This document shows, piece after piece, positions 4,733 to 24,841 of a DNA stretch of 64,000 bases; position 1 is the stretch's first letter; every line of letters begins with the position of its first letter. The position numbers and the translations under genes were made by a program. Under the pieces are notes generated by a model. That model saw only the letters and a program-made list of their open reading frames with translations, made no database searches and was not told the DNA's origin. This DNA is from Acidobacteriota bacterium (GTDB lineage: Bacteria; Acidobacteriota; Blastocatellia; Chloracidobacteriales; Chloracidobacteriaceae), in contig JACQXX010000060.1 in NCBI GenBank assembly GCA_016208495.1, forward strand, positions 1 through 64,000, in the 5' to 3' direction.

Positions 4733-4910
4733 ATAGCGAAAGAGCGAAAGAGCGAAAGAGCGAAAGAGCGAGCCTTGTGATTGGCTACATCGCTGTCAAC
4801 AACGAAACTCTGTTCAGTGGATTTTCTACTTCGCTATTTCGCTATTCACTATTCGCTCTGCTTGCTACTTCGCTATTTGGCTCTGCTTGCTCTTTCGCTA
4901 TTCGCTCTAC
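4733..4910. repeat. Inverted pair of GCGAAAGA arrays
   Basis: The left arm (4734-4772) is a near-perfect octamer array of GCGAAAGA. After a spacer of about 55 bp, the right arm (4826-4910) carries the inverse theme (TTCGCTATT, CTCTTTCGC) in less regular form. The right arm runs into the stop codon of the small secreted protein. This is one member of the array-spacer-inverted-array family seen throughout the window. Confidence 0.8.
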
Positions 4911-5293
4911 TGATTGGCTGGCTTGCTGTAAGTGGTTGATTTGGTTCCGGATTTGGTCTGTCCGGTTTTATTGCTTGTGGCTGAACCAGTGCTGGTCTTG
5001 GTCACTGTTCCATCGCCGTTTTTATCGTAGTCAGTATCCTTGCTCGCGGTTCCGCGTACGCCGGTGGCGGTTCGCGTTTTTGAAGCACTTCCATTACTGG
5101 CTGATTTGCTGGTTTGGACATTGCCATATGCCCCGTTGACCTGCGAGTCACGCGAAGCGGTTCCGTTCCCAGCAGTTGCGGTTGTGGTTGATCCGTTCTT
5201 ACTGGTCCGGGTTTTGGATTTCTGAGCCAAAGTGGCTCCGGTCGTTAAAAACAAGCACATCACGAGCACACTGACGAATTTTACTTTTTTCAT
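4907..5293 (-). CDS. Small secreted Ser/Thr/Lys-rich protein with one EF-hand-like loop
   Basis: I chose the internal ATG at 5293 because TAGGAG lies 7-12 bases upstream and the following residues form a clean signal peptide (MKKVKFVSVLVMCLFLTTG, cleavage near TLAQ). An upstream in-frame start would add 18 residues without a ribosome binding site. The mature part, about 105 residues, is low-complexity (Ser, Thr, Lys, Gly, Asn) with repeats of SK(T/S)RT and GTASK/GTASR. One calcium-loop-like motif, DYDKNGDGTVTK, is present. The protein is predicted to be periplasmic or extracellular. I do not recognise the family; a role in the envelope is only a guess. The last codons overlap the inverted repeat arm. 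Confidence 0.7.
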   Translation of the reverse strand: MKKVKFVSVLVMCLFLTTGATLAQKSKTRTSKNGSTTTATAGNGTASRDSQVNGAYGNVQTSKSASNGSASKTRTATGVRGTASKDTDYDKNGDGTVTKTSTGSATSNKTGQTKSGTKSTTYSKPANQ

Positions 5294-5553
5294 AAACAAT
5301 TCTCCTAAAATAAGTTGTGATAGCTGCATATAATCTGGAAACCACATTCTTGAGTGATTTCCGTACTGCGCAGCACCCTATCAGTGTCTGGGGGATGAAC
5401 CTATCAAAACGACTTTAGTGACTGCAGTTTGGGTGTGAATGACCAAAAAAGAAGGATGAATGACAATCACTTCAAACTTGAAAAATTCCAAATATTTCCT
5501 ACTCCCAATGTCTTCAGCCCCAGGCTCAAGATGCTTCAGCCCGATGAACAAAT

Positions 5554-6537: not shown

Positions 6538-6550
6538 GGAGGTTTGGCCC

Positions 6551-7819
6551 ATGACGGGAGGAAATCAATCTGTTTCCCAGGCCCGAGCGCTGAAACATCA
6601 ACCACTTCAGACCAAGGACGTGGCAATGCCCCAAGGCGATATCTTTGTCATTGATGACAACCCAATCAATCTCAACTTGCTGGCCCATCTCCTGCGTGAG
6701 CGTGGCTATCAGGTTCGGATTGCGACCAGTGGCCGGCGTGGGATTGTGGCGGTCCGCACTTCAGTTCCGGATCTCATCATGTTGGATATCACCATGCCGG
6801 AGATGAATGGATATGAGGTCTGTGAGCAACTTAAATCAGATGAATTGTTGCGCGATATTCCAGTCATTTTTATCAGTGCTTTGGATGATGCCCTCGATAA
6901 AGTCAAAGCGTTTGAAGTCGGTGGGGTTGACTATGTGACCAAACCCTTTCAAATCGAGGAAGTTCTGGCCCGGATTGAAAATCAGTTGCGGATTTCTCAC
7001 CTCCAGAAAGAACTGCGCGAAACCAATAATCAGCTTGAACGCCAGCGCGCCCAGTTGCTCGAAGCCAATCAGAAACTCAAAGATGTCGAGCAGGCCAAGG
7101 CCGACTTTACGGCCATGCTGGTTCATGACTTGAAATCGCCACTCACCGTTGTCAAAACCATGCTGGACCTGCTCCAGTTTGACGAAATCATCAACCAGGC
7201 AATTGCCGACCAGGGCTTGACGGATGTCATGGTGGCTTCCGAACGCAACGTAGACAAAATTCTCGACCTGATCCAGGAAATCCTTGAGTTTTCGCGCATC
7301 GAATCCCAGAACCTGAGCCTGGATATTGAACCAGTTAGCGTTGAAGGCATTCTCAATGACTGTGTGATCACCACCAGCGTCACTGCACTCCAAAACCACA
7401 TCACCGTTGAAGCCGATATTCAGGAAAACCTGCCGCTGACCCTCGGGGATCGAGTCAAATTGGAGCGCGTGTTTTCAAACCTGCTTTCCAATGCGGTTAA
7501 ATTCACTCCAACCAATGGAAAAATTACCATTGAGGCCCGGCAGATTAACCAGTCTGATTCTTCATCATCAAGTCCGAACCTGATTGCGGTTCACATCAAC
7601 GATACCGGCGAAGGGATTCCAGCGGAAGAAGTTCCCTACGTCTTCGAACCTTACCGCCAGGCCACCAAACGCAAAGGACGTCTGGGTGTTGGACTCGGAT
7701 TAGCCATCGTCAAACGGATTGTCACTGCTCACAAAGGCCAACTGTGTGTTGAAAGCCAGCTTGGGATCGGCAGCCGGTTCACAGTTTTGCTTCCAGTGCT
7801 TTCCGCATTGAGTGACTAG
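6551..7819 (+). CDS. Receiver-histidine kinase hybrid
   Basis: A cytosolic signalling protein of 422 residues. A longer frame opens at 6491 inside queG, but AAGGAGG just before ATG 6551 fixes the start. An N-terminal receiver domain (about residues 27-145) has paired acidic residues IDDN and phospho-acceptor D79 in LDITMP. A short coiled coil follows. Then comes a HisKA domain with H192 in MLVHDLKSPL and a HATPase domain with N-box NLLSNAVKF, DTGEGIP and GLGLAIVKR. No membrane segment is seen. Receiver-first kinases of this type usually take phosphoryl groups from, or are tuned by, another kinase. The partner is not encoded next to it. Confidence 0.92.
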   Translation: MTGGNQSVSQARALKHQPLQTKDVAMPQGDIFVIDDNPINLNLLAHLLRERGYQVRIATSGRRGIVAVRTSVPDLIMLDITMPEMNGYEVCEQLKSDELLRDIPVIFISALDDALDKVKAFEVGGVDYVTKPFQIEEVLARIENQLRISHLQKELRETNNQLERQRAQLLEANQKLKDVEQAKADFTAMLVHDLKSPLTVVKTMLDLLQFDEIINQAIADQGLTDVMVASERNVDKILDLIQEILEFSRIESQNLSLDIEPVSVEGILNDCVITTSVTALQNHITVEADIQENLPLTLGDRVKLERVFSNLLSNAVKFTPTNGKITIEARQINQSDSSSSSPNLIAVHINDTGEGIPAEEVPYVFEPYRQATKRKGRLGVGLGLAIVKRIVTAHKGQLCVESQLGIGSRFTVLLPVLSALSD

Positions 7820-7860
7820 CGAATGAAAAGCGAGTAGCCAATCAAAGAGCCAAAACAAAA

Positions 7861-7907
7861 TCACCCTGTCACCTGTCACCTGTCACCTGTCACCTGTCCG
7901 TTGTCAC
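7861..7907. repeat. CACCTGT tandem heptads
   Basis: Five tandem copies of CACCTGT or close variants stand 10 bases upstream of the M28 peptidase start. The unit is a heptad version of the CACCTTGT theme found elsewhere. No inverted partner is seen. Confidence 0.85.
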
Positions 7908-7917
7908 CGATTTCATC

Positions 7918-10245
7918 ATGTCGTCTGACCACCCTTCGAACCGCACGTATTTTCTGACCTGGATTCTGGCCTTTTTCCTCCCACTGGCTATTGCCACGCT
8001 CAGTATTTTCCACATCACCACTCCGCCAGCCGTTATTCCGACAACGGCACCGCCGACTGAATTTTCAGCCGAACGGGCCATGACACATCTCTGGACCATT
8101 GCCCAGCGTCCGCATCCATCGGGATCTATCGAACACCAGAAAGTCCGTGAATATCTGGTTGCCCAGTTGCAAAACCTTGGGCTTCAAACCGAAGTCCAGG
8201 AAACAACAGCCCTGGTTGACGCCTGGGAGACAGCCGGCACGGTTCACAACATCATTGCCCGACTCCCTGGCACCAACCCAACCAAAGCCGTCATGCTGGC
8301 GGCGCATTATGATTCAGTTCCAACGGGACCCGGGGCCAGCGATGACGGCGCCGGCGTGGCGGGTATCCTTGAAGCCATTCGTGCCTTAAAAAGCAACGGC
8401 CCGCTTCGCAACGATGTCATTGTGCTTTTCACTGACTCTGAAGAACTTGGCCTGCTCGGGGCATCAGCGTTTGTGAAGGAGCACCCCTGGGCTAAAGACG
8501 TCGGCGTAGTGTTTAACTTCGAAGCACGCGGAAATCGTGGGTGTTCGTTGCTGTTTGAGACCAGCGAGCAAAACGGTTGGCTCATGGCGGAAGTAGCCAA
8601 AGCTGGGACCTATACCATTGGAAACTCTTTGTTTTATGAAGTGTATCGCCTCCTGCCAAATGACAGCGATATGACGATGTTTAAGCAAGGAGGCATGATC
8701 GGCTGCAATTTTGCTTTTTCGCAAGGAATTCTGTTTTACCATTCGGCGCTCGATCACCCGGCGTACATTGAACAGCGGAGCCTGCAACACCACGGCGGGT
8801 ATATGCTGAACCTCACCCGGCATTTTGGAACGCTTGACCTGAGTAATCCTCCACGACAGGCAAATGTGGTTTATTTCGAACTTCCCTTTGGAAAACTGAT
8901 CTGGTATTCGCAAATCTGGAATCTCATCTGGTTAGGTGGCTTGATCTTCCTGATACTGGCCGTCGGTGTGATTGGGGTGCGCAACCAGCAGCTTTCCCTG
9001 TCAGGGATGTTCCTTGGAATCCTGGCAATGGTGACAGTGTTGATCCCTCCAGCACTGGTAGTGTGGGGACTGTGGAGTTTGATCTATGCTCTTTCGGCTC
9101 ACTATCAGACATTTTCCTATTTTGAGGATGCCTATCAGCAGCACTGGTATCTCCTTGGATTTACAGCCATTACGGTCGCAATCATTTCATTTCTCTGGAT
9201 GACCGCCAGCCGAAAGGTCTCGTGGCCCAATCTGGCTTATGGGTCGCTGCTCATCTGGACTGTGCTGGCGATTATCACAACCCGATTTTTTCCAGGCGGG
9301 GCGTTTCTGTTCCTGCTCCCAACCCTGACCAGTGCCTTGAGCCTGGGAATTATCTTTTTGCGAAAGTGGGACGATTGGACCACCTGGCAACCTGGGGTGG
9401 TGTTGAGCCTGGGAATGCTTCCGGCGCTGTACTTTATGCCGCCGCTCATTTTGTGTCTGGTAGTAGCGTTGACGCTCAAACTGGCCTGGATTGCCATGAT
9501 TGTGGTTGGGCTGTTGCTTGGGGTATTGCTCCCGCAAATTGGGGTTTTACATCTGACAGTCCCGAACCGGCTTCCCTGGCTGGCACTGGGAGTGGGAATG
9601 TTGTGCCTGATTACGGGTGGTTTAAAAACCAAAATTGACCACGATCACCGCCAGCCAAATATGATTTTTTATGCCTTGAATGCTGACACCAGCCAGGCTT
9701 TCTGGGGTTCAGACCTGAGCCCGGTGGACGATTGGGAACGCCAGTTCCTTAAAGACAATCCAACCCGTCGCACGCTCCCGGATTTTTTCCGGATGAGTTC
9801 AAGTGAATTTCAGGTCAATCCGGCAACCGTGGCGCCAGTCGAACCAGCAACGGTTGAAATTGTTTCCGACGAACGCACAGCCGACTCGCGAAAAGTGCAG
9901 ATCCGGGTGCGATCTCCGCGACTGGCCGAGCGGTTGTTGTTGTATTTCGAAGAAACCGAACTTCGATCCCTGGCCGTCAATGGCAAATCTTTCCAAAAAC
10001 TCCCCAAGTTTCAGACTAAATCTGGCCTGAAGTATAACTTTGACTATGTGGCCCCACCCGCTGAGGGTATCGTGATTGATCTCGAAACTGTTGGAAACAA
10101 TCCCATCAAACTGGCGATTGTGGACCAATCCTTCCGGCTGCCACCACTTCCTGGGTTTATGTTCATCTACCGTACCGAAGAAATGATGCCCAGCATTCGA
10201 AGCCTGACCGATTCGACCTTTGTAGTGAAGACAGTGATGCTTTAG
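7918..10245 (+). CDS. Membrane-bound M28 family metallopeptidase
   Basis: A 775-residue zinc aminopeptidase-like protein. Residues 13-33 form a membrane anchor. The M28 domain follows with zinc ligands in AAHYDSV (H130), SDDGAG (D142), the catalytic SEELG (E175/E176) and a later His in HSALDHP. About eight membrane helices occupy residues 325-575, and a soluble beta-rich C-terminal domain follows. This plan (M28, multi-helix membrane region, C-terminal domain) is that of the ER metallopeptidase ERMP1/Fxna group and its bacterial relatives. The catalytic domain is predicted to face the periplasm. Its substrate is unknown. It follows a heptad repeat with no clear ribosome binding site and has no evident operon partner. 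Confidence 0.9.
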   Translation: MSSDHPSNRTYFLTWILAFFLPLAIATLSIFHITTPPAVIPTTAPPTEFSAERAMTHLWTIAQRPHPSGSIEHQKVREYLVAQLQNLGLQTEVQETTALVDAWETAGTVHNIIARLPGTNPTKAVMLAAHYDSVPTGPGASDDGAGVAGILEAIRALKSNGPLRNDVIVLFTDSEELGLLGASAFVKEHPWAKDVGVVFNFEARGNRGCSLLFETSEQNGWLMAEVAKAGTYTIGNSLFYEVYRLLPNDSDMTMFKQGGMIGCNFAFSQGILFYHSALDHPAYIEQRSLQHHGGYMLNLTRHFGTLDLSNPPRQANVVYFELPFGKLIWYSQIWNLIWLGGLIFLILAVGVIGVRNQQLSLSGMFLGILAMVTVLIPPALVVWGLWSLIYALSAHYQTFSYFEDAYQQHWYLLGFTAITVAIISFLWMTASRKVSWPNLAYGSLLIWTVLAIITTRFFPGGAFLFLLPTLTSALSLGIIFLRKWDDWTTWQPGVVLSLGMLPALYFMPPLILCLVVALTLKLAWIAMIVVGLLLGVLLPQIGVLHLTVPNRLPWLALGVGMLCLITGGLKTKIDHDHRQPNMIFYALNADTSQAFWGSDLSPVDDWERQFLKDNPTRRTLPDFFRMSSSEFQVNPATVAPVEPATVEIVSDERTADSRKVQIRVRSPRLAERLLLYFEETELRSLAVNGKSFQKLPKFQTKSGLKYNFDYVAPPAEGIVIDLETVGNNPIKLAIVDQSFRLPPLPGFMFIYRTEEMMPSIRSLTDSTFVVKTVML

Positions 10246-11973: not shown

Positions 11974-14900
11974 ATGTCTGTAGGCTCACGAATTCTTTTG
12001 GTGACCAGCAATCCAACACTCCCAACTGAATTGCAGCGCACCTGGCCTGAGCATACTGCAATTCAGTTTGAGTCACTCATCCCCAACTCCGCAGGATGGG
12101 CAGTATTATGTCACGGAGATCAACTTGCTGAAGTAATCATCCTTGATCAAGCCTCTTTCAGTCATCAGGACCTGGAATTCAATGAAGAGAATCTGGTTCT
12201 CAAAACCAGGGAGTTGTCAGCGCAATCCGAAGTGATTTGGCTTGGTGATGGTCAGGGGTCGCTCAAAACCCAATTCTTGCAGTCAGGTGCTTTTGCTGTT
12301 CTCTCACCTCCCCATGACTTCGAAGATCTGATTCATTATGCTCACCAAGCAATCAAACTTCATCAATTCAAACAGGATGCTCAAGAAAAGCGGATTTTAA
12401 ATACCTTACTGGACCGGGCCACACGGATTCTGAGTGGACATCAGCCAGACGAGGTTCTTGAGAGTATCTTGCAAGCAATTCAAAGCATTGGGTTTGATCG
12501 GGTTCGACTCTACACGTTTTCAGATGACAAGCAGTATCTGATCGGACAAAAACACATCGGCATGGACGATCAGTTTTTGCACTTATATCGTCGAATTGAT
12601 GACGATCTCTGTATCAACATACTGTACAAAAATAACCAGCCGCAAATCTTCAAGCGGGCAGATGGATACCCAATTGTTTTTGAACCTGATGATGGAAACC
12701 TCTCCGAGTGGGGATGCGTGCTCATGGTTTATCAGGGCAATAAGATTGGCAAAATCTCTGTTGACAATAAGTTGAGCCGCCGCCCAATCCAGAAGAAAGC
12801 GTTGGAATATGTCCAGGGCTTTGCCGAACTGGCGGCGGCGGCGTTCCAAACGATCTGCCTGGTTACCGATGTCAAAACTCGGGTTGAGAACCTCAGCCGG
12901 TTTTTGCAGGTTTCCACCACCGTTATTTCAAGCCTTGAAATGGAAAAAACGTTGACCGCCACTTGCCAATCAGCGGTTCAACTTCTGGGTGTTGACCATA
13001 GCGGCTTTGTGGTTCGTGCTCCAGACGGTACCACAGCCAGAGTGATGGCGGAGTATCCTGGTCAAAACGCAATTGGCAAAGAAATTCGAATTGCCGGAAT
13101 TCAGTTGGAAGAAGATCTGTTTCAGCAAGGTAAAGTAATCAATGTGCCGGATGTGACACAAGCTAAAGAACTTAGAAGCGTTCGGAATCTACTTCTGAGT
13201 CTCGGAGTTCAGTCATTGTTGGTTGTTCCAGTGGTGATTCGAGGCCGCGTGTTTGGTTCTTTAAGTCTTGATTCCACCAACCGAAAGCGCACATTTACCG
13301 ATCATGAAATTGACCTGTGTACGGTGTTTGCCAAACAAGTCGCGATTGCAATTGAAAATGCCCGGCTTTATGAAGAAGCCACTCAGCAAGCGAAGGAAAG
13401 TACTCGACTGCGGGCGAATGCTGAACGTCACCGACAGATGCTTGATGCATTGAATCAGAAACTTTTTTCGATTCAGGCCATTAAGGAATTACCTCGGCTT
13501 CAAAAAGAAACCGTTCGCCTTGCCGCTGAACTCCTGGGATGCAGTGCCGGCGCACTGTTTGTCAACCACCTCCATTCCAGAGAGCTTGAGCTTGTCGCGG
13601 AGTACCAGCTTGGCACACACGTGCTGCAAACCCGGTTGTCACACCAGGAAGGATTGGTTGGAGAAGTGGCCCGGCTGAGAAAAACAGCTTCCACTTCAAA
13701 CTATGCTGAGTGGCCAGAACGCGAAGCTATATTTCAATCCTTTGATTTCCAATCTGCAATGGCTATTCCGCTGATGAGGGCTGGGGAAGTCGAGGAAATC
13801 TTGTTTCTCGGCGATCAAATGCGGAAACGCGATTTCGATCCTATTGAGCAGGAAATACTAGAGCGCTTTGCAGCTCGGGCAGCAATTGAAATGGACACTT
13901 CCAAATTACTGAGCAATGAGCAGCGTATGCTCAGTTATTCAACGCTCTTCTTAAACCTCAGTACCTTTATCCTTACCTCACAGCAGCTTGATCAGATTTT
14001 ACACGCCATTTTAACCGTGATCACTGCCGGGTATGGGCTTGGTTTCAATCGTGCAGCATTGTTTTTAAAAGACGGAAACCATTTAGTTGGAAAAATGGGG
14101 ATTGGGCAATTAACTCGCGAAGAAAATCGGGAGGTTTGGGACAACCTTTCTCATCCACCAGACGCATTTCGGGCTTACCTGGATCAATTACCTACTGAAT
14201 TTGCCCAAACTTCGGTCTTTGAAATCATTGATGGCCTACAATTGCCGATTGACCTCAGTTCTGATGACTGTTTTTCACAACTTATCTCAGAAAAGATCCC
14301 GTATGCCCATCTGGTTCAAAAAGAAGAGCTTGTTCACCTTCCAAAGACTTTTATCCAACATTTGAATCCCTCGGTGGAAGCCATCATCGTACCGCTCAAA
14401 GCTCAGGGAAAAATCCTTGGGCTGATTTATGCGGATAACGAGTTCATTGCCGACCCAATTACCGAAGTTACCCGGGAACTTCTTTTGACCCTGGCTGATA
14501 CGGCAGCCCTGGCGATTCATCGAACCTTGCTCTTTCAGGAAACCGAAGAAGCGAGGCAGCAATTCCAGGACTCTTTGGTTGCCGCGATTGAAGTCAACAC
14601 CGCTCAGGACCCGGTTGATGTGCTCGGAGATGTTGTGGAGCGGATTTTATTTGCCGAACGGGCGTCTCGCGTGGATTTGTTTTTGATTGATCAAGCCACG
14701 AAGGCCGCGCATTTGTTGGTCACGGTTGGAGAAGATCGCGATGATGATTCTTTCGATGAACTGATACGCCCAGAAGGTATCTCAATCCAGGTCTTTGAAG
14801 CAGGTGTTCCACAAATTATTCCGGAGATTGAAAAAGAGCCGCCAGGCCGATTAAATCTGAACCTGCTTGGGTCAACCTCCAAAGCTGCCTTGTGTCTTCC

Positions 14901-17352
14901 TTTTTCCCTCCCAGAGCGCAGAATTGGGGTGGTGTGGATTCTGTATGATTACCCACGCTCTTTCCCAGAATATGAAGTGACGGCACTGCAACACTACATG
15001 AATCTTGCCGCGTTGATATATCAGTTTAAGCGACGGAGCCGCAGGCAGGAAGCCTTGAGACAGGTGTCAGAAGCCCTGGCGAAAGTTCAAAATCTGGCGG
15101 AAACCCGACAACAAATCATTGAAGGCGTAGAAGGCATATTTGAAGCCAGTTCGGCGGTACTCTGGTCATATAATTCAGAACAACAAGCCTTTGACCCGCA
15201 AACCTCCGTAGTGGCTGGAATTTCAGATGAACTCTGGAACAAATTACAAAAATTCCCTCCGCGCCCAGAGGGTATGACAGCGACGATCCTCCAAAGAGGC
15301 TGGGTTGGGATTTCAGTGGTTGACGAGCATCAATATCCTTCGCTGAGTCCAGATATTCAGCAGTTGTTGAAGGAGGTCCAGGCTGTCAGCTTCCAGGGAG
15401 TTGCTCTCAAGGTGGGTGAAGAGATTTTTGGTGTGCTTTATATTAACTCTGACTCAGTTCAAAGCTTTTCCGAGGAAGCTCAACAAATTGCACGCTCTTT
15501 TGCCAGTCAGGCAGCGCTGGCATTGAAGAAAGCCAGATTGATTGAAGAATTGGAAAAAATCAAACAACTGGCTCAACGCATTGCAACCGCCATGACCCAA
15601 AATATTGACTCCACCCTGGAAGCCATTGCAGCGGGTATTCAGGATACACTCCGATGCGATGCCGTTACCCTGTATCCTTATAAAGAAGACGCTGTTGGTT
15701 CACGAACCGGGCGTATCAGCCATACCCCAAAATTTATCGGTGTGCGGAATCCAGACAAATGCGCTCGTCCTTCTGAAGTGACACCAGAATCAACGCTTTC
15801 CCGGATGCTTCACGAATTACCAGCCATCTACCCCGTACCGGATGTTGAACAGGATCCCTTGTTTTATCAGCGCTTTGCCCAGGAAGAAAAAATTCTATCG
15901 TGTGTTGGTATCCGTCTGGAAGTAAATCATCGCATCGTCGGCATTTTATTTGTCAACTATCGCACTCGACATCAATTTACTGACCAGGAGGTTGAAAATA
16001 TTACATGGCTGGCCAATCTGGCGGCCATTGCCATCAGCAATGCACAACTGTTTTATGAGATTGAGCAAGAAGCCAAAATCCTGCAAGCCTTGTACGGCAC
16101 CACAGAACCAACCAGGGGCTCATTGTTGAATCGGACATTTGAGGAAATCGTCAACCAAGCCTGTGAACTCACCAATATTGAGCAGGGGATTATTTATGCG
16201 GACATCCGGCTCGTTGAAGGCGAAAAGACCATCCTCAAAGCGTTCTTTCCCGAATCTGAATTGAGTGAACCTGCGCGACGGAATGCAGTGATTGATTTGC
16301 GAGACCCCAAAATTGGAGTTACCGGTCGTGCAGTGAAAGAGAAAAAAATACAAATCGTGCCAGATGTCTCAGATGATCCTGATTATCGGGAATCTCACCC
16401 GGAAACCAGATCTGAACTGACTATCCCTATCTTTCATGCCGATACCGTGGTTGGAGTGATCAATGTTGAAAGTAACCAAGCTCATTACTTCAAACTCGAA
16501 CATTTATCAATTTTGATCATCTTGGCAGATGTAGCTGCTTTTGCCATCGAAAAAGCAGCCATGACGGAGCAGCTTATTAAAGCTGCAATGAAGGAAGAAA
16601 TCATTAAGGAAAAAGCTCGACATAATCAAATTCTCTCATTGACGTTCGGTGGAATTGCCCATGAGGTAAAGGGTCATAGCATTGCCATCAAAGACAATGT
16701 AGAAGATCTGGTCGAGCGGTTTCGAGAAGGGGAATCCGTCTCTCAACAAGAAATTCTTGAAATTCTTGATCTTACTGAACGACATGCATCATCAATGACC
16801 CACATCGTCAATGATTTTCAATGGTTTGTGCATTCACATCGAGATACAACCGATGAATTTACTGAAACCGTTGATTTGGAAGATTTGATCAAGAGCGCCA
16901 TCAAAGAAACAAAAGATCGTCTAAAAATAGAAGACCCGAATCCTTTACAGGTAAAAACAAAAACTGAAACGTCCATCATTCTTTCTTGCCGAGCTAATTT
17001 GCTTCGCCGAGCTATTATAAGCTTACTCGTAAATGCAGTGGAAGCTATTCAATCCATTAGCAAAGAGCTAAAAGATGGGGACGTTTGGGTTGAATTGGGT
17101 AAAAATCAGAATTCTACTCATTGTGTCATTTCAGTTTTTGATCGAGGTCCCGGCTTCTCTCCCTCGGAAGACCTGTTCGAACCTTTTTTTACAACCAAAG
17201 GTAGTCGGGGGCTAGGACTAGGGCTGGCTATTTGCAAGTTCATTATCGAAGCACATCGAGGAAGTATTGAAGCAGCCAAAAACGAATTGGGAGGCACAGT
17301 TTTCATGGTTACCTTACCAGTCCAACCTTTTTCTACACTCAATCAAAACTGA
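11974..17352 (+). CDS. Giant cytosolic multi-GAF histidine kinase
   Basis: A soluble sensor kinase of 1792 residues with no membrane segment or signal peptide. The first 130 residues look like a degenerate receiver: the acidic pair and conserved Lys are missing, although a VIILDQ strand remains. About eight tandem GAF domains follow (roughly residues 140-1530), joined by short coiled coils such as QVAIAIENARLYEEA. The phosphotransfer region has H1563 in GGIAHEVKGHSIAI, an unusual H-box without the normal Pro. The HATPase domain has LLVNAVEAI, DRGPGFS and GLGLGLAI. It starts after AGAGGTGGCCC. The next gene, a receiver-protease fusion, begins 12 bases after the stop and is the obvious phosphorylation target. 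The ligands of the GAF domains cannot be predicted. Confidence 0.92.
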   Translation: MSVGSRILLVTSNPTLPTELQRTWPEHTAIQFESLIPNSAGWAVLCHGDQLAEVIILDQASFSHQDLEFNEENLVLKTRELSAQSEVIWLGDGQGSLKTQFLQSGAFAVLSPPHDFEDLIHYAHQAIKLHQFKQDAQEKRILNTLLDRATRILSGHQPDEVLESILQAIQSIGFDRVRLYTFSDDKQYLIGQKHIGMDDQFLHLYRRIDDDLCINILYKNNQPQIFKRADGYPIVFEPDDGNLSEWGCVLMVYQGNKIGKISVDNKLSRRPIQKKALEYVQGFAELAAAAFQTICLVTDVKTRVENLSRFLQVSTTVISSLEMEKTLTATCQSAVQLLGVDHSGFVVRAPDGTTARVMAEYPGQNAIGKEIRIAGIQLEEDLFQQGKVINVPDVTQAKELRSVRNLLLSLGVQSLLVVPVVIRGRVFGSLSLDSTNRKRTFTDHEIDLCTVFAKQVAIAIENARLYEEATQQAKESTRLRANAERHRQMLDALNQKLFSIQAIKELPRLQKETVRLAAELLGCSAGALFVNHLHSRELELVAEYQLGTHVLQTRLSHQEGLVGEVARLRKTASTSNYAEWPEREAIFQSFDFQSAMAIPLMRAGEVEEILFLGDQMRKRDFDPIEQEILERFAARAAIEMDTSKLLSNEQRMLSYSTLFLNLSTFILTSQQLDQILHAILTVITAGYGLGFNRAALFLKDGNHLVGKMGIGQLTREENREVWDNLSHPPDAFRAYLDQLPTEFAQTSVFEIIDGLQLPIDLSSDDCFSQLISEKIPYAHLVQKEELVHLPKTFIQHLNPSVEAIIVPLKAQGKILGLIYADNEFIADPITEVTRELLLTLADTAALAIHRTLLFQETEEARQQFQDSLVAAIEVNTAQDPVDVLGDVVERILFAERASRVDLFLIDQATKAAHLLVTVGEDRDDDSFDELIRPEGISIQVFEAGVPQIIPEIEKEPPGRLNLNLLGSTSKAALCLPFSLPERRIGVVWILYDYPRSFPEYEVTALQHYMNLAALIYQFKRRSRRQEALRQVSEALAKVQNLAETRQQIIEGVEGIFEASSAVLWSYNSEQQAFDPQTSVVAGISDELWNKLQKFPPRPEGMTATILQRGWVGISVVDEHQYPSLSPDIQQLLKEVQAVSFQGVALKVGEEIFGVLYINSDSVQSFSEEAQQIARSFASQAALALKKARLIEELEKIKQLAQRIATAMTQNIDSTLEAIAAGIQDTLRCDAVTLYPYKEDAVGSRTGRISHTPKFIGVRNPDKCARPSEVTPESTLSRMLHELPAIYPVPDVEQDPLFYQRFAQEEKILSCVGIRLEVNHRIVGILFVNYRTRHQFTDQEVENITWLANLAAIAISNAQLFYEIEQEAKILQALYGTTEPTRGSLLNRTFEEIVNQACELTNIEQGIIYADIRLVEGEKTILKAFFPESELSEPARRNAVIDLRDPKIGVTGRAVKEKKIQIVPDVSDDPDYRESHPETRSELTIPIFHADTVVGVINVESNQAHYFKLEHLSILIILADVAAFAIEKAAMTEQLIKAAMKEEIIKEKARHNQILSLTFGGIAHEVKGHSIAIKDNVEDLVERFREGESVSQQEILEILDLTERHASSMTHIVNDFQWFVHSHRDTTDEFTETVDLEDLIKSAIKETKDRLKIEDPNPLQVKTKTETSIILSCRANLLRRAIISLLVNAVEAIQSISKELKDGDVWVELGKNQNSTHCVISVFDRGPGFSPSEDLFEPFFTTKGSRGLGLGLAICKFIIEAHRGSIEAAKNELGGTVFMVTLPVQPFSTLNQN

Positions 17353-17364
17353 GGAGAAAACATT

Positions 17365-19698
17365 ATGAGTGACATCACCATTCTAATTGTTGATGATCTG
17401 CCTGATCACCGCAGACCGCTCAGAAGAAGGCTTGAAACCAAGTTGAAAGTTCGTGTTTTGGAAGCTGATGGCCAAAAAGAAGCCTGGGACATTTTACAAG
17501 AACATCACCAGAATATTGCTCTGGTTGTGGTTGATCTTCATATGAAGACAGGTCCTGACGAAGGAACCCAACTTATCGAACAAATTGTCAACTCTGGGAT
17601 GGATTGCCGGATTGGTGTTCGAACCGCTCATGGAAGAATAGATGATCAGGTTCTAAAAACTAGAACTCCAAGAGTTGATTTTTATGCGAAGAAAGATGAT
17701 GGGATTGACTCATTACTTCAATATATTCAATCAGCTATCAATAGTTTACTTGACTTAAAAATTGCTGATCATCAGATAAATCAGAAGCACCAGGTCTTAG
17801 AAAGATTAAAGGAAAGCCAAAACATCCGGTGGACAGTTCTTGAACCCACAACAGATATTTCATCTGACTCTTCCTCTCAGGAAAAAATTGCGATACGGCT
17901 GTTTTTTGAAATGTGCAGTTGGCAATCAGCAAAATTCAGCACTCAGGAAGGTACTTTTTACAAAATCGAGGCAGAGGGAACGCGCCAAACAACCTCAGTT
18001 GGTTCTCCCGCACTCTTTGAGGCAATTCAATATATTGCACTGCCGTCTCCGACTACGGATCTTACAGCTCACGTTGTCGCTGGAACTGAAATTTGGCATC
18101 CCTGTGAAGGTAAATTTCGCATTTTGCCTCTTCCTGCACCATACATTGAGGGCCAGGAGCCAACTTATCAAATGAACCTTGGGGTTTATCTCAAGAATCA
18201 ATTTTTACCGGAGGCAAATGTAAGGATCCAAAAGGAGAGCATCTTTTTTGATGGAGTACCCTGCGCATCTGTTTCTATTATCCCAGTGAGGCACAACCCT
18301 CGGGTTGGAAATCTTGAGATTCTTTCTTCAGTAGAGCTTGAAATCAATGGGAAGTCACAACCAGGTAGTGCTGACCAAAAGTTCCAGCCCAAGATAAACT
18401 CACCGCTACAAACCATTGTTTTAAATTGGGCAAATGCTTTGCGAGGATATACAGCTAAATCGTCATCTCGACTAACCTCAATGGCTATCAATTCCGAATT
18501 TGATGAAACAACAGACACACTTAAAATACCAGATTTGCCTGCCTTACCAACAAAACCAAATTATTGGATTTTTGGGACTCAAAAAGGCATTGAAGCCATT
18601 CAACCACTTCTTGATGAGCGCGGGAAAACTTTTAACGTCGTGCCGTTCATTCTTGGGGAAGGAAGACTCTCGTTCTCAAGTGACCTCTCCGCTGAGGAAA
18701 AAAGAAAGGCGATTCGGGACTTTTTACAGGAACAATCAGGTGAAACGACCAAACCCAATGACCGACCGGATTATGTTCTGCTGGTCGGCAATCATGAAGT
18801 TATCCCTCATTTTCACTTTGTGGAGTATCATTGTCTTGGTGACGGCACGCTCGACAAAAAAACTCGTCAAGAAATTCAAGGAATTCCGATCTTATCCGAT
18901 TCGCAGTATACCTATTTCCCCGAGATCACTGATGATCCAGGCCCTCGCTTTGCCCTGGGACGGTTGCCGTTCAATGACCCTCAAAAACTGAGAGACTTGT
19001 GTGTCAACTATGTTGCAGGAAAGTTTTGCACACAACTTTCCAATCAATGGAGATTTTTTGTTGGCCTGGATCACGTTAAGCCAAATAAATTTCAACGGCA
19101 TATCGAAGACCGAATCAGGCCGCTGGTTGGAAATAATGCTGATTTTCTGTATTTAGATAGTATGGTTGACCCCAACCGTATGGTTGAACTTGCGCTACGG
19201 AATCCCACCCGGTTTGTTACCTATCGGGGTCATGGTTCGTGCATTGAATGGCAAATCAACCCAAGCCTCAAGCCAACTTTTTTCCAAACACGTCATTTAT
19301 CAGAAAAAAACTATGCAGTTCAGGGAGTAATGGGAATCGCCTGTTGTACCAACGCGCTTCGCCTTCATCCAGCAACCCAAGTCACGGGAAACAGCCGGTG
19401 CAATTTGGGCTATTGCAACACTCATCAAGAGCCGTTTGGCTATACCTGGGTCAAGAATCAGCTTTCTCCCTGGTATCTTGGCTCGACTTCTAAGAGCTTT
19501 TCGTTGGCCAACGATGTGTTCCATGAAGAGTTGGTTTGTCAATTGATTAAACCTTCTGTTTCAACCATCGGAAGTGCTTTCCGCTCTGCTTTAATTGAAT
19601 TCTTGAAAACGACTGAGATGGAGGTTCAACCTCATGTCCGTGACAGTGTGGCGATGTACTTATTAATCGGCGACCCAGCCTGGCCACTGCAACGCTAG
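17365..19698 (+). CDS. Response regulator fused to a gingipain-type (C25) caspase-fold protease
   Basis: A 777-residue fusion. Residues 1-125 form a full receiver domain with acidic pair D10/D11, phospho-acceptor D57 (VVVDLHM) and a Lys in FYAKKD. Residues about 170-370 resemble the gingipain pro-region, with a segment FLPEANV...SIIPVRHNPRVGNLEI. Residues about 385-777 form a C25 protease. H623 in YRGHGS and the C660/C661 pair in GIACCTNA are 37-38 residues apart, as in gingipain RgpB (HGS and NCC motifs). The ending LLIGDPAW also fits. There is no signal peptide and no secretion C-terminal domain, so it should act in the cytosol, unlike known gingipains. A good ribosome binding site (GAGGAG) precedes the ATG. 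The preceding kinase is the likely activator. The target proteins are unknown. Confidence 0.88.
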   Translation: MSDITILIVDDLPDHRRPLRRRLETKLKVRVLEADGQKEAWDILQEHHQNIALVVVDLHMKTGPDEGTQLIEQIVNSGMDCRIGVRTAHGRIDDQVLKTRTPRVDFYAKKDDGIDSLLQYIQSAINSLLDLKIADHQINQKHQVLERLKESQNIRWTVLEPTTDISSDSSSQEKIAIRLFFEMCSWQSAKFSTQEGTFYKIEAEGTRQTTSVGSPALFEAIQYIALPSPTTDLTAHVVAGTEIWHPCEGKFRILPLPAPYIEGQEPTYQMNLGVYLKNQFLPEANVRIQKESIFFDGVPCASVSIIPVRHNPRVGNLEILSSVELEINGKSQPGSADQKFQPKINSPLQTIVLNWANALRGYTAKSSSRLTSMAINSEFDETTDTLKIPDLPALPTKPNYWIFGTQKGIEAIQPLLDERGKTFNVVPFILGEGRLSFSSDLSAEEKRKAIRDFLQEQSGETTKPNDRPDYVLLVGNHEVIPHFHFVEYHCLGDGTLDKKTRQEIQGIPILSDSQYTYFPEITDDPGPRFALGRLPFNDPQKLRDLCVNYVAGKFCTQLSNQWRFFVGLDHVKPNKFQRHIEDRIRPLVGNNADFLYLDSMVDPNRMVELALRNPTRFVTYRGHGSCIEWQINPSLKPTFFQTRHLSEKNYAVQGVMGIACCTNALRLHPATQVTGNSRCNLGYCNTHQEPFGYTWVKNQLSPWYLGSTSKSFSLANDVFHEELVCQLIKPSVSTIGSAFRSALIEFLKTTEMEVQPHVRDSVAMYLLIGDPAWPLQR

Positions 19699-19787
19699 TT
19701 GGATAATCATAATTTTTAGAATCAATCGTTTACAGGTGAAACTGCTCGTTCGAAACCGTCTTGCCTTGCTGTCGTGAAAGGAGTAGT

Positions 19788-20522
19788 ATGGCAACCCCGA
19801 TATTAAAAGTTGAAGGTGACATGATGTCAAACCGTTCTTGGCTTGCAGTCGTGCCAGGGGGGGAAATCAATCAAGCTCCGTTGCGTGAACTTTCATATCA
19901 ACCCGACCTGACCGACACTTCACGTGTTTGGATTCGACTCAATTACCAGGTGAAAGGGTTTTGGATCCATTCGAATCACACAACTTCCGACCAAACGATC
20001 CATATTCCAGGCGTGCGAGTAATGGCAACACCGGGCGCTCCCAAGCTGCCGATGGATGTGTTTTCAATTGCCATCCCTCGCAAAAGCCGTGTGTCTCAAG
20101 ATGGACTCCGAGTCGAGGTGCGTCAGCAAACCAGTGTTCCAGGCACGTACCGGATTCCTCCGGAGCCGCCATTTCAACTCGAACGTGAATCTATTCCAGC
20201 AGCTCCGGATCCTGTGATTTACGAGTCTGGAGCGTTCTTCCCTGAGACAGTGGCGGCTTGCGGCAAAGTCTATACTATTGATGGCATGAATCAGGTGGTC
20301 ATTTCTGTTTTTCCAATTGCCTACGCACCTCAACTCGGGCAGTTGATTGTAAGGAATTCCATTCAGGTTTCCCTCCTGTGCTTGAATGGCAGCGCTTACG
20401 CGCTCGACGAAGTGAAATGGCACTCTCCGGCAGTTCAAAGTATCGTCGGATACAATCATACATTTCTTCGGTCTCGATTCTCTGGAACAACCCGGCCAAG
20501 CGGCCCTGTCGCTGCTATCTAA
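19788..20522 (+). CDS. Standalone protein resembling the C25 pro-region
   Basis: The start is ATG 19788, eight bases after AAAGGAG; an upstream TTG in frame is unlikely. The 244 residues have no signal peptide and no catalytic motif. Residues about 145-215 align by eye with the pro-region of the preceding protease. FFPE...IDGMNQVVISVFPIAYAPQLGQL parallels FLPE...FDGVPCASVSIIPVRHNPRVGNL, and both continue into (R/L)xSIQV-like strands ending in NG. It therefore looks like a free C25 pro-domain. In secreted proteases such pro-domains act as folding aids and inhibitors. Here it could restrain the receiver-protease in trans, which is an inference. It lies 89 bp after the protease gene on the same strand. 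Confidence 0.7.
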   Translation: MATPILKVEGDMMSNRSWLAVVPGGEINQAPLRELSYQPDLTDTSRVWIRLNYQVKGFWIHSNHTTSDQTIHIPGVRVMATPGAPKLPMDVFSIAIPRKSRVSQDGLRVEVRQQTSVPGTYRIPPEPPFQLERESIPAAPDPVIYESGAFFPETVAACGKVYTIDGMNQVVISVFPIAYAPQLGQLIVRNSIQVSLLCLNGSAYALDEVKWHSPAVQSIVGYNHTFLRSRFSGTTRPSGPVAAI

Positions 20523-20845
20523 AGGTACACCATCGAGTTATTACCTCAGATTGATCTGCCATTCCTGGTCAGACAGAGGGAATGTGTGTTTCTAAGGCGC
20601 AAATAACCCACACCATAAACACCTGAAGAGAAAAATACCTGTGGTCATTCAATCTATTTTCCGTCTTCATTTTCTCACTAATTTATACAACGGTATCTAA
20701 TACAAACCTTCTTTAAAAAGCTATTTAGTAATTTTATCAACTGAACGAGTTAAATAAAGTCAGCGCCCTATTTCTCCCTGGGGTTTGGATCGCTGAACGT
20801 CCAAACCACCCTTCAACCCATCACCAATACAAGGAGTAATGCAGT
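20523..20845. other. AT-rich gap before the subtilase gene
   Basis: This 323-bp gap holds no gene I can support. It is clearly more AT-rich than its flanks, especially 20635-20760, and lacks the heptad arrays that fill most other gaps. A promoter for the subtilase gene could lie here, separating it from the kinase-protease genes. I cannot assign -35 and -10 boxes reliably. Confidence 0.5.
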
Positions 20846-22234
20846 ATGGCTAAAGTACGTGTGCTTGTTGAAATTACACATTCTCAACCTGAAGCCTTTG
20901 CGGTTCGGGCTAGCTTGTTTGATTCTCCGGTTGACTCAGTCCGGGCAAGTGAAGGTTTATTAACGAATTTGGCTGGCTTTGGACTTGAGGTCACTGATGA
21001 GTTTCCACCGGTCCCCATGTTTGCCGACACTGTGGTTCAAGCGGAAACCGTTGGGTTTTCAGCGTTTGACAGCCCGGAAACAAGCCCTGATGCTGAAGCG
21101 GCATCAGTGGTCGTATCCTGTGAAGTCGAACGGTCCAAGCTTCAGGAACTACAGGCTCAAGCTGGGGTTCAAGTTTGGCCAGATGCCGAGATAACACTTT
21201 TCCCGGATGAATGCTGTTCCTGTAGCCTTGGATTCGAAAGTGATGACACAGAACATCCCTTCGATCTGGCTCGATCAAATGGCGGAACTGACTGCCGCCC
21301 ATTTCGCCCAGGAGTTTCAATCCAGGTCATCCGCCAGTTGCTTTCAGTTGGAGCAGTGTGGAGAGATGGGTTTCGAGGTCAAAATATTGTCGTTGGAATC
21401 GTTGATGAAGGAGTCAACGGCCAGGTATACCCAGTGGTAGGCGGCTTTAGTTCTTCAGGTAGCCCTCGGCCAGGCAGTGCGGCCATTACCAGCCACGGCT
21501 CGATGTGTGCGGCTGATGTATTGGTCGCCGCCCCTGCCGCCAAATTATATGACTACCCGTTTATGCAATCTGCCTACTCTGGAACATCATTGCGCATGTT
21601 TCAGGCAGCACTGGATCAACGCCGTTTGGATGGCACACCTCATATCTTGAACAACAGTTGGGGCTTTCGCTGGGTTTCACAAGCCAGTTCTCCCGCCCAC
21701 CCCAATTGGGATGCCAATCACCCATTTAATCGAAAAGTGCGTGAAGTTGTGGCTTCAGGTGCGGCTGTGTTCTTTGCGGCTGGCAATTGTGGCCAGCAAT
21801 GTCCAAGTGGAAACTGTGTTCCTGGCGAGATCGGCCCAGGAAAATCCATTCTTGGACCAGGCAGTTTAAAGAATGTCATCACTGTCGCCGCTGTTAACAG
21901 CCGGCATGAGCGAATCGGATATTCCTCACAAGGTCCAGGATATTTCACCGCGCAAAAACCCGATATTGCCTCATATTCTCATCTGTTTGGCAATTTTGGC
22001 CCAGGTCGCCCCGGCGGTAACGATCCTCCCTTTGACAACGGCACAAGCGCCGCAACTCCGGTGGCAACAGGTGTTGCCGCGCTTTTAAGAAGTGCGCTGG
22101 GACCAATTCCGCCAGAACAGTTAAAACAGGCTTTGATCCAAAGTGCCATTAATCTTGGCGTACCTGGTTGGGACACGGATACCGGATTTGGAGTCATCAA
22201 TGCTGGCGCTGCCTATGCTCTCTTGCGTCGGTAG
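20846..22234 (+). CDS. Cytosolic subtilisin-like serine protease (S8)
   Basis: A 462-residue subtilase. The catalytic triad is D187 (GIVDEGVNG), H217 (SHGSM) and S401 (DNGTSAATP), with oxyanion Asn N314 (AAGNCG). The spacing fits the S8 family. The Asp motif is DEG instead of the usual DTG/DSG, and HGS replaces HGT. Residues 1-130 form a pro-domain-like region ending VWPDAEITLFPDECC. There is no signal peptide, so the enzyme is predicted to remain in the cytosol. A Cys-rich patch (ECCSC, CGQQCPSGNC) is unusual for a secreted subtilase. The start has AAGGAG upstream. It follows the receiver-C25 protease genes on the same strand and may act below them in one pathway, which is an inference. Confidence 0.9.
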   Translation: MAKVRVLVEITHSQPEAFAVRASLFDSPVDSVRASEGLLTNLAGFGLEVTDEFPPVPMFADTVVQAETVGFSAFDSPETSPDAEAASVVVSCEVERSKLQELQAQAGVQVWPDAEITLFPDECCSCSLGFESDDTEHPFDLARSNGGTDCRPFRPGVSIQVIRQLLSVGAVWRDGFRGQNIVVGIVDEGVNGQVYPVVGGFSSSGSPRPGSAAITSHGSMCAADVLVAAPAAKLYDYPFMQSAYSGTSLRMFQAALDQRRLDGTPHILNNSWGFRWVSQASSPAHPNWDANHPFNRKVREVVASGAAVFFAAGNCGQQCPSGNCVPGEIGPGKSILGPGSLKNVITVAAVNSRHERIGYSSQGPGYFTAQKPDIASYSHLFGNFGPGRPGGNDPPFDNGTSAATPVATGVAALLRSALGPIPPEQLKQALIQSAINLGVPGWDTDTGFGVINAGAAYALLRR

Positions 22235-22360
22235 CGGTTCGGGGATAAGGTAAAAGTCTCCTATGTCTGGAGTCACCACAATGACAAGGACTAAGCTCAT
22301 GTCATTTTCCAGATCGCTAAAGCTATGGGAGTAAATTACCTGAGCGTTGGAGGTATGTAT

Positions 22361-22591
22361 ATGAAATGGTTGGTTTCAACTGTCCCCTCTATTGACCAAA
22401 CTCAAATCCAACACAAACTTGCCCAATGGGATGCAACTTTAGATAACGAGATGCCACCAGTCAAAATGGACACGGGAGAGCAGGTTTTTGAAGTTGAAGG
22501 GCCACCTACTTTACCAGAGTTAGCTTCCCACGATGAGAGCATCGTATCAGTTGCCCCCAATGCGGAAATCGAATTGTTCTCTCGATTCTAA
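22361..22591 (+). CDS. Small protein resembling the subtilase pro-domain
   Basis: A 76-residue protein. GGAGG stands seven bases before ATG 22361, which decides the start over ATG 22355 and the longer frame from 22325. Its sequence parallels the N-terminal region of the preceding subtilase. DNEMPPVKM matches TDEFPPVPM, and FEVEGPPTLPEL...VAPNAEIELF matches CEVERSKLQEL...VWPDAEITLF. It is therefore a free pro-domain (inhibitor I9-like in role). Such proteins can inhibit or fold their cognate subtilase in trans. It sits 126 bp after the protease gene. I do not know a named family for it. Confidence 0.7.
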   Translation: MKWLVSTVPSIDQTQIQHKLAQWDATLDNEMPPVKMDTGEQVFEVEGPPTLPELASHDESIVSVAPNAEIELFSRF

Positions 22592-22785: not shown

Positions 22786-23460
22786 TTACTGAATAATCTC
22801 CCCTTCAGTCTTAAACCTTCGGTTGCTGGAATGAAACCGTTCGATCTTGCGTCGAATATCATTGCCAATGTCCTGGATTTCTTTGAAATCACTTTCGCTG
22901 AGATGTTTTTTGAGAATTTCAAAAACCTTGCCGAGTTCAACTCCATACTTGCCGAGCAAAATCTCAATATCGCTTTCGTAAATGCTGACCTTTTCAAGCC
23001 GTCCCTGACGATAGAGTGATGGCAATGCATAAAACTTCAGAATCAAGAGCCCTTCAACCGTCGCGCAAGGAATTGCCTTCCCGCCAAAATATCGCACTGT
23101 GGCGTATTTCTTTTTGATCAGATTGAACAATCTGTTCTTTGTCAAAAGGAAGTCAACTTTGAGCCCTTGAAACCGCCCATTGACGAAGGTCTCGGTTCGA
23201 TTTTCAATCGAAATTTCGGAAAGCGAATTCAAATCTTTTGTGCTGATAATAAAATCAATATCTTGCGTGTTTCGGCCTTCAAAATAGCTCAGGAGTGCCA
23301 CTCCACCCACAAGGAGAAATGAGATTTTTTTGGCTTCGAGGGTATTGAAAAACGCTTCGATAATCTCGGGCAACGCATGGGCCGAGGACGCCTTGCCTTC
23401 CCAGTTCTTCATATCAAATAAAACCCCATTTTTGATGATCTCTCCAATTGTGATATCCAT
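22786..23460 (-). CDS. Nucleotidyltransferase of the AbiEii/DUF6036-like type
   Basis: The start is placed at ATG 23460, giving 224 residues; a longer frame to 23556 overlaps the HEPN gene and lacks a ribosome binding site. The N-terminal half has the nucleotidyltransferase signature LVGGVALLSYFEGRNTQDIDFII (GG, R-T and D-x-D), then KVDFLL as the third acidic strand. The C-terminal half is helical and charged. Proteins of this type include antitoxin-like and phage-abortive-infection enzymes that transfer nucleotides to partners. It is the last gene of a minus-strand run (dcd, MNT, HEPN, this gene), 79 bp behind the HEPN gene. Its true partner and substrate cannot be told from sequence. Confidence 0.75.
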   Translation of the reverse strand: MDITIGEIIKNGVLFDMKNWEGKASSAHALPEIIEAFFNTLEAKKISFLLVGGVALLSYFEGRNTQDIDFIISTKDLNSLSEISIENRTETFVNGRFQGLKVDFLLTKNRLFNLIKKKYATVRYFGGKAIPCATVEGLLILKFYALPSLYRQGRLEKVSIYESDIEILLGKYGVELGKVFEILKKHLSESDFKEIQDIGNDIRRKIERFHSSNRRFKTEGEIIQ

Positions 23461-23539
23461 ATTCTTTTCTTCACTTTCCAGATCAACCTGGAGCGATTTC
23501 CGGCACTTTATCCGTTTGCCTGCAAAATGAGTAACTGGG

Positions 23540-23926
23540 CTATACTGGAAGTCCAAAAGACCCTCGTATCAGTTGACGAATCTGCCGGCATCGCCTCAAT
23601 GCATCTTGAGCCACGGCTTTATTCGCTGAGCTTCCCGGGTATCGAAAAGAGACGGCATACGTTGTCAAAACCCCCAGATCAGTGCTTAATCCACCCCAGG
23701 TTGGTTCAACCGAAAGCACATCGTTCAAAAGTATCAACAAGTTATGAGTTCTTTGAATTGAAAGACCCGCTTCTTCAAGCCGGGCTTTCAGGTATTTTTC
23801 AGCACATTGTTGGGCATGAAAACAAGCAGCGTCGAAATTTGGGCTTTTTCGTGCTCTCAGTTCACGTTGTGCTGACACCCAATCGCCTTCTGCTTTGTCA
23901 ATCCATTCGGTGGTTGTGAGCCTCAT
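23540..23926 (-). CDS. HEPN domain protein (likely toxin partner of MNT)
   Basis: A 128-residue all-helical protein. The start at ATG 23926 follows GGAAAGG and overlaps the end of the MNT gene by 29 bases, a common arrangement in MNT-HEPN toxin-antitoxin pairs. HEPN features are KAEGDWVSAQREL, CFHAQQCAEKYLKA and THNL, with RYPG near the end. The RX4-6H ribonuclease motif of HepT toxins is not evident. RNase activity is therefore uncertain, and the protein could instead be a binding or regulatory HEPN of the PF05168 type. It acts in the cytosol, presumably as a complex with the MNT protein. Confidence 0.85.
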   Translation of the reverse strand: MRLTTTEWIDKAEGDWVSAQRELRARKSPNFDAACFHAQQCAEKYLKARLEEAGLSIQRTHNLLILLNDVLSVEPTWGGLSTDLGVLTTYAVSFRYPGSSANKAVAQDALRRCRQIRQLIRGSFGLPV

Positions 23927-24227
23927 GAAGCACCTTTCCTTGACTGACAATTTCCTCTACAAAACGATCTCCAATGCTGAGACGTGCCTGAATCTGTTGG
24001 GGTGTCCGAACCAATAAATCCACAGCAATTGACGGATTAACCTGGGTAAGAATCTCGGCTGCTTTGAGAAGCGGATGACCTTCAAAAGGCATAACCACCA
24101 GTAAATCCACATCGGAATCCCACCGTGGCTGACCATAGGCGTGAGATCCAAATAAGACGATTTTCTCAGGATGAAACCGCTCAACAATTTGGTCACACAG
24201 ACTTTGAATTTCACGTGTGGAAGTCAT
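23898..24227 (-). CDS. MNT-type nucleotidyltransferase (likely antitoxin)
   Basis: A 109-residue minimal nucleotidyltransferase. AAAGGAG eight bases before ATG 24227 fixes the start; the frame could otherwise be extended into dcd. The catalytic motif is GSHAYGQPRWDSDVDLLVV (GSx10DxD), with AVDLLV as the third acidic strand. In type VII toxin-antitoxin systems such an enzyme AMPylates and silences its HEPN partner. The HEPN gene here overlaps it downstream, which supports that role. It begins 23 bp after the dcd stop, so the two genes are probably on one transcript. Confidence 0.87.
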   Translation of the reverse strand: MTSTREIQSLCDQIVERFHPEKIVLFGSHAYGQPRWDSDVDLLVVMPFEGHPLLKAAEILTQVNPSIAVDLLVRTPQQIQARLSIGDRFVEEIVSQGKVLHEAHNHRMD

Positions 24228-24250
24228 TACCGCTTCTCCTTTGCTTACAT

Positions 24251-24841
24251 TCAGACTTTCGCCAGCGTTAGCCCCTGCTGGTCCTGGTACTTGCCGGAGC
24301 GGTCCTGGTACGACGTGGAGCATTCTTCGTCAGATTCAAAGAAAATAATCTGGACAAAGCCTTCTTCGGCATAGAGCCGCACCGGAAGGTTGGCGGCATT
24401 ATAGAGTTCGACTACCAAACGGCCACGCCAGTTAGCCTCCAGTGGTGTTGTATTTACAATTAGTCCGCAGCGTGCATACGTCGATTTCCCAAGAGCAAGA
24501 GCAGTAACATTCCGTGGCATATGAAAGCGTTCAATCGTCACACCCAATGCGTAGGAATGCGGCGGCAACAGCCAATAATTTGAACCATCGGTGTCTTTGC
24601 GGAGTGGAATATCCAAAAGACTGCTCGAATCAAAGTTCTTCGGGTCAATTTCCGTTCCCTGAATTGGGGAAAACACTTTAAACTCATCTTTTGCCAGCCG
24701 GCAGTCATACCCGTAACTCGACAACCCGCAACTAATCACTTTGCGGTCTTCAACCTGGCGAATCAGTTTTGATTCAAATGGGGTAATAAGTTGGTTCTCT
24801 TCGCACATCCGAAGAATCCAGCGATCTGATTTGATAGCCAC
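24251..24841 (-). CDS. dcd: dCTP deaminase
   Basis: A 196-residue enzyme of the usual Dcd length. It deaminates dCTP to dUTP as a step toward dTTP in the cytosol. Family motifs are SSYGYDCRL, the Arg/Ser segment GKSTYARCG and the catalytic Glu in TPLEANWRGRLVVELYN. The end GKYQDQQGLTLA is typical of the nucleotide-binding C-terminus. Whether it is mono- or bifunctional (dCTP to dUMP) cannot be decided here. It is the first gene of a minus-strand run with MNT and HEPN genes. dCTP deaminases are also known as anti-phage nucleotide depleters, but this copy looks like the housekeeping enzyme. Confidence 0.95.
   Translation of the reverse strand: MAIKSDRWILRMCEENQLITPFESKLIRQVEDRKVISCGLSSYGYDCRLAKDEFKVFSPIQGTEIDPKNFDSSSLLDIPLRKDTDGSNYWLLPPHSYALGVTIERFHMPRNVTALALGKSTYARCGLIVNTTPLEANWRGRLVVELYNAANLPVRLYAEEGFVQIIFFESDEECSTSYQDRSGKYQDQQGLTLAKV

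Follow-up and report, generated by a model that had tools for sequence, protein, structure and literature searches.

Five genes follow one another on the forward strand of the window, the whole 64,000-nt stretch of acidobacterial DNA analysed here, which belongs to a genome assembly of 8.4 Mb in 177 contigs (Table 1). The original prediction had described five same-strand reading frames; all of them are present at that place, and the domain assignments made for them hold near-exactly, with Pfam supporting the first four and giving no match for the fifth. Successive genes are separated by 12, 89, 323, and ~126 nt. The first of these gaps lies between the kinase stop and the start of the fusion gene, and the third (20523–20845) between the free C25 pro-domain gene and the subtilase gene. 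The likely start of the free C25 pro-domain gene is ATG at 19788 (TTG at 19761 is also possible), and that of the small-protein gene is at 22361, giving a product that begins MKWLV. Below, the last two genes are referred to as module A and the first three as module B.

Table 1. Genes of the protease locus, with positions in the window and the basis of each assignment.
Gene product	Position	Strand	Basis
Multi-GAF histidine kinase, 1792 aa	11974..17352	+	Pfam GAF stretches and HATPase_c; H, N, G1, and F/G2 boxes
Receiver, C25 pro-domain, and C25 protease fusion, 777 aa	17365..19698	+	Three Pfam domains above cut-off
Free C25 pro-domain protein, ~244 aa	19788..20522	+	Pfam Propeptide_C25
S8 subtilase without signal, 462 aa	20846..22234	+	Pfam Peptidase_S8; 26-row alignment; AF2 model
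Small free subtilisin pro-domain, ~76 aa	22361..22591	+	Downstream position; HHalign; VIA-align

By hydropathy, all five proteins lack a signal peptide and any clear membrane segment, in agreement with the intracellular location that had been proposed for both proteases. Promoter and terminator patterns across the locus occur at chance level and are uninformative in either direction. The GC contents of the kinase gene (46%) and the fusion gene (44%) are lower than those of the other measured genes of the window (50–55%), which suggests a foreign origin for these two genes.

The kinase contains several GAF stretches and a HATPase_c domain at residues 1675–1784, while HisKA was not reported by Pfam. 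Its H-box histidine is His1563 (GIAHEVK), and the N, G1, and F/G2 boxes can also be recognised. No strong hydrophobic segment was seen by hydropathy, which points to a cytosolic enzyme. The proposed two-component pairing with the downstream fusion is consistent with these boxes and with the intact phospho-acceptor aspartate of the receiver.

A conserved subtilase and its small downstream partner

The subtilase comprises an N-terminal I9-like domain (residues ~1–118) that has no Pfam family, a linker, and a catalytic domain (178–449), with a Peptidase_S8 score of 97 bits. The catalytic residues D187, H217, and S401, which had been reported as intact from the single sequence, are invariant together with the oxyanion residue N314 in the 26-row family alignment. 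This alignment takes in 25 close orthologues, with the 26th (L186) lying outside it. In the AF2 model (pTM 0.78), the N-terminal domain is confident and has a topology similar to that of the small protein, while the linker and active-site loops are poorly modelled. The model aligns with pro-subtilisin E and pro-Tk-subtilisin over a length sufficient to take in the pro-domain. Five invariant or near-invariant cysteines are found across the family at residues 150, 221, 315, 319, and 324, three of them directly after the oxyanion asparagine (GNCGxxCPxxxC); they could possibly form a metal site or a redox switch in a cytosolic protease. A PatA-like role in RiPP maturation was also considered. Since the best NCBIfam matches, mycosin and PatA, both fall far below cut-off and the small protein resembles a pro-domain rather than a precursor peptide, this reading was set aside.

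The small protein is covered by no Pfam model. None of 25 members of its family scores above the cut-off of Inhibitor_I9 (PF05922), one reaching E 0.22, and BLASTP of single sequences sees no match between the small protein and the subtilase N-terminus. Comparison of families gives a different picture: HHalign of the 25 small proteins against the N-domains of the orthologues' subtilases returned a probability of 96% (E 3e-9), with the motifs 'PPVPM' and, at the C-terminus, 'V.PNSEM.LY' common to both. The small-protein HMM also matches the subtilase N-domain in L186 (E 1.4e-4). The AlphaFold model (pLDDT 80) shows a ferredoxin-like beta-alpha-beta-beta-alpha-beta fold with a loose or flexible C-terminal tail. 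When this model was searched with VIA-align, ranks 1–11 were all subtilisin propeptides or POIA1 (Z 7.6–9.4 over 63–70 residues), the top neighbours including the propeptides of BPN' and Tk-subtilisin and the free inhibitor POIA1. Foldseek gave no significant E-value for this common fold; its best match (3e-3) is an unrelated fold-mate, and POIA1 (E 0.03) and the BPN' prosegment (E 0.11, TM 0.68/0.73) score lower. The predicted free version of the subtilase pro-region is invisible to BLASTP and becomes solid only through family profiles and predicted structure. By homology and predicted fold, the small protein is a free, intracellular I9-like subtilisin pro-domain; current sequence models leave its family unannotated.

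Free-standing I9-type inhibitors of subtilases include yeast Pbi2 and plant SPI-1. POIA1 of Pleurotus (1v5i, 1itp), one of the top structural matches, is a subtilase inhibitor built as a free pro-domain fold, equal in size to the small protein. Unlike POIA1-type inhibitors, the small protein is encoded in bacteria as the constant operon neighbour of a single subtilase family, and it lies below detection by Inhibitor_I9. For subtilisin propeptides and POIA1 it is established that the pro-domain is a cleft-bound stopper and that activity follows its removal (structures 1spb and 1v5i). In the proposed mechanism, the subtilase would fold with its own inhibitory or chaperone N-domain in its cleft, and the small protein would serve in trans as a second, exchangeable stopper of the active-site cleft, its conserved '...PNSEMxLY' tail mimicking the C-terminal end of the pro-domain. 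The enzyme would then stay off until the small protein is removed.

Distant subtilase relatives from Sinorhizobium, Nonomuraea, and Streptomyces, found in a plasmid search, were aligned and used as the query for a search of 84,980 genomes, which yielded 80 loci. The search provided 25 close orthologues (50–75% identity) from Cyanobacteriota, Bacteroidota, Actinomycetota, Pseudomonadota, Planctomycetota, and Myxococcota, and a 26th, L186, comes from a second genome of the phylum to which the window belongs, making seven phyla in total. A small gene lies directly downstream of the subtilase gene at every one of the 26 orthologous loci, with a spacing that is mostly between -4 and 112 nt. At L075 the spacing is 410 nt and the subtilase frame is broken at its N-terminus, and the contig at L101 ends within the small gene. 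The nearest relative of the window's subtilase is cyanobacterial (75% identity, grouping support 100/100), and a true orthologue was found in only one other of 272 genomes of the window's phylum. These two observations together suggest that module A is a transferred, self-contained unit. No recurrent neighbour of module A is apparent at the other loci, where gene calls are unannotated. The conserved pair of subtilase and free pro-domain, a portable two-gene unit, is the strongest result of this analysis.

Small ORFs that the small-protein HMM does not reach were also observed beside more distant subtilases, after the gene in Streptomyces akebiae (L066, 10820–11086) and before it in a Myxococcota genome (L171, ~2735–3301), and the pairing of subtilase and small ORF may be wider than the 26 loci. 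The subtilase pair of Flagellimonas/Allomuricauda (L069 and L070, 10001–11595), 59% identical to that of the window, is flanked by a transporter-like gene and a gene that starts like glutamate-1-semialdehyde aminotransferase.

PopC of Myxococcus xanthus is a 50.8 kDa protein without a signal peptide that consists of a featureless N-terminal part and a subtilisin domain; it is held in the cell by PopD, released on starvation, and later secreted (PMC6434023). The two genes form an operon in which popD starts ~1437 nt after the start of popC (PMC4320627). Module A shares with this system a signal-less subtilisin-like protease of ~470 aa with an N-terminal extension and a small partner gene directly downstream (PMC6434023, PMC4320627), a likeness drawn from published descriptions of size, gene order, and lack of a signal, not from sequence. 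By this analogy, PopC/PopD appears to be the nearest functional parallel to module A. The same correspondences in size, order, and signal would fit a stronger proposal, that module A is itself of the PopC/PopD type, with a protease held in the cell by its small partner and later exported by a non-classical route for cell–cell signalling through processing of a surface protein. We regard this as a tentative possibility. PopC acts in development after export, and no sign of this was seen in the module A orthologues found. Moreover, apart from the Polyangium orthologue, none of the Myxococcota subtilases inspected is PopC-like, the others looking exported or differently built. Profile searches of Myxococcota returned no PopD-like match, a result that carries no weight either way.

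The receiver–C25 fusion and the free C25 pro-domain

The fusion protein contains a receiver (residues 6–102; Response_reg, 42 bits), a C25 pro-domain (171–336; Propeptide_C25, 36.5 bits), and a C25 protease domain (442–774; Peptidase_C25, 63.5 bits against a cut-off of 23). Its best match among solved structures is the pro-domain of the gingipain Kgp (5mun), at residues 160–341. The receiver retains the acidic pair D10/D11, the phospho-acceptor D57, and K109/K110. As catalytic residues of the protease, H623 and C660/C661 had been proposed. Alignment with a secreted C25 protease places H623 in a GHG motif, in agreement with that proposal, and narrows the nucleophile to C661, whose C-T-N context aligns with C-I-N of the secreted enzyme; C660 adjoins it. 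There is no DNA-binding domain in the fusion, which leaves the protease as its sole evident output.

As in the C25 gingipains RgpB and Kgp, a pro-domain precedes a caspase-fold protease. Unlike in RgpB and Kgp, there is no signal peptide, a receiver is present at the N-terminus, and an extra pro-domain is encoded by a free gene; with a receiver and no hydrophobic signal at its N-terminus, the fusion does not belong to the secreted gingipain type. Among response regulators, CheB has an enzymatic output and RssB is a proteolysis adaptor. The fusion is like CheB in carrying a receiver on an enzymatic output, and differs in that the output is a protease domain itself. On the anatomy of the two proteins, the kinase would phosphorylate D57, and this phosphorylation is predicted to relieve the adjacent C25 pro-domain, so that the response regulator of module B would itself be a caspase-fold protease.

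Searches with the C25 half as a single-sequence query (1471 bits against its own genome as a control) covered ~1,000 genomes, with Chloroflexota and most other phyla outside their scope. Only weak partial matches were returned, with no useful relative in 396 same-phylum genomes and no close relative either in 339 genomes from a cyanobacterium's phylum or in 237 genomes of Polyangium's phylum. Pfam C25 matches do occur in 140 of the 396 same-phylum genomes, and those listed score far above the C25 domain of the window. For the fusion as a whole, no relative was found across the 84,980 genomes with exact 8-residue patterns, an approach of low sensitivity, nor in a plasmid search made for the fusion; a search for whole-fusion relatives returned matches of the receiver type only. 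The open-licence literature searched describes no case of a receiver–C25 or receiver–caspase fusion. The receiver–C25 fusion is the most unusual object of the locus and is unique within what was searched.

The only other C25 gene of the host genome lies at L063 (contig C158 of genome G000, 2239–9616), where a CHAT–SIR2_2 fusion, an nSTAND1–WD40 NTPase, and this second C25 protein without an evident signal are encoded in an operon-like arrangement. The cluster looks like a conflict or cell-death system.

The free C25 pro-domain protein matches Propeptide_C25 modestly (24.9 bits against a cut-off of 22) and shares 23% identity with residues 168–350 of the fusion (E 5.6e-4). It may act as a second brake in trans, or as a folding aid, for the C25 protease. 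Because its profile match is modest and no orthologue was found, the gene could instead be a decaying duplicate, a non-functional leftover from a duplicated C25 gene, and its uniqueness and its position next to its likely source would fit such an origin. Against this stand a reading frame that is intact across ~244 aa, a GC content of 50.8% compared with 43.8% for the fusion, and the absence of any trace of a protease over the 323 nt that follow, and we consider a leftover unlikely. The Propeptide_C25 match on the one hand, and the profile and fold matches of the small protein on the other, bear out the prediction of a free pro-domain for each protease. The most likely arrangement is that one pro-domain in cis and another in trans restrain each protease.

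Two modules or one pathway

We favour a reading in which the locus consists of two adjacent modules, A with the subtilase and its free pro-domain and B with the kinase, the receiver–C25 protease, and the free C25 pro-domain, and give it a probability of roughly 0.6. The separation is suggested by the conservation of the subtilase pair without the C25 genes and by the 323-nt gap between the modules. Neither the C25 fusion nor the free C25 pro-region was found at any of the 26 orthologous loci, for which up to 10 kb was inspected on each side, some contigs being shorter than 5 kb. Kinase matches at the orthologous loci are weak and confined to L083 (E 0.0004 and 0.006), with another at one more distant locus. 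Among 30 genomes that contain subtilase relatives, including 24 that contain close orthologues, the C25 half had no detectable relative. The five-gene order is conserved as a single unit nowhere among the loci found, and the subtilase pair occurs in unrelated places, an outcome that had been named in advance as refuting the original proposal.

A single signal-gated cascade had originally been proposed, in which the kinase acts on the receiver–C25 protein, and this protease then fires the subtilase by cleaving or removing the free pro-domains. Five genes in order on one strand, separated by 12 to 323 nt, and two proteases without signal peptides would suit such a pathway. With the subtilase pair standing alone at all 26 other loci, and no C25 relative detected in the 30 genomes examined, the cascade no longer appears probable, and any link between modules A and B is suggested solely by their adjacency in one genome across the 323-nt gap. 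The most novel version of this idea is similarly improbable: a two-component caspase-fold protease, restrained by pro-domains in cis and in trans, would respond to a signal by switching on intracellular proteolysis and, by removing a trans-acting pro-domain, also a subtilase that had been acquired as part of a mobile protease/inhibitor unit.

Caspase-containing conflict systems (EACC1 and its relatives; PMC7159879, PMC8195603) employ intracellular caspase-like peptidases, at times beside other proteases, whereas the locus has no NTPase or effector-associated domain. C25 peptidases are unmentioned in the main text of these two papers. Directly downstream of the locus, on the reverse strand (22786–24323), an AbiEii-like nucleotidyltransferase gene (below the Pfam cut-off) is followed by a pair encoding HEPN and minimal nucleotidyltransferase proteins, and a dCTP deaminase-like gene (24251–24841) comes after these. 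Although the HEPN and nucleotidyltransferase genes, the sporadic, mobile-looking distribution of module A, and the second cytosolic C25 operon with CHAT–SIR2 and nSTAND–WD40 proteins in the same genome would be in keeping with a role in defence or regulated cell death, such a role is the least probable of the alternatives, as PADLOC matched no system (its hits were limited to subtilase profiles of a generic kind and weak ones for IetS), the locus encodes no nuclease, NTPase, or effector-associated domain, and module A lacks an apparent recurrent neighbour in the unannotated gene calls of other loci.

With two modules as the preferred reading, each has a significance of its own. Module A is a cross-phylum, unannotated pair of a protease and its putative inhibitor, and it may extend the principle of PopC/PopD far beyond Myxococcus. 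A response regulator with a protease as its output would be new. Should the receiver–C25 fusion prove to be phospho-gated, this two-component system would exert its effect through proteolysis itself and would be a bacterial equivalent of signal-gated caspases.
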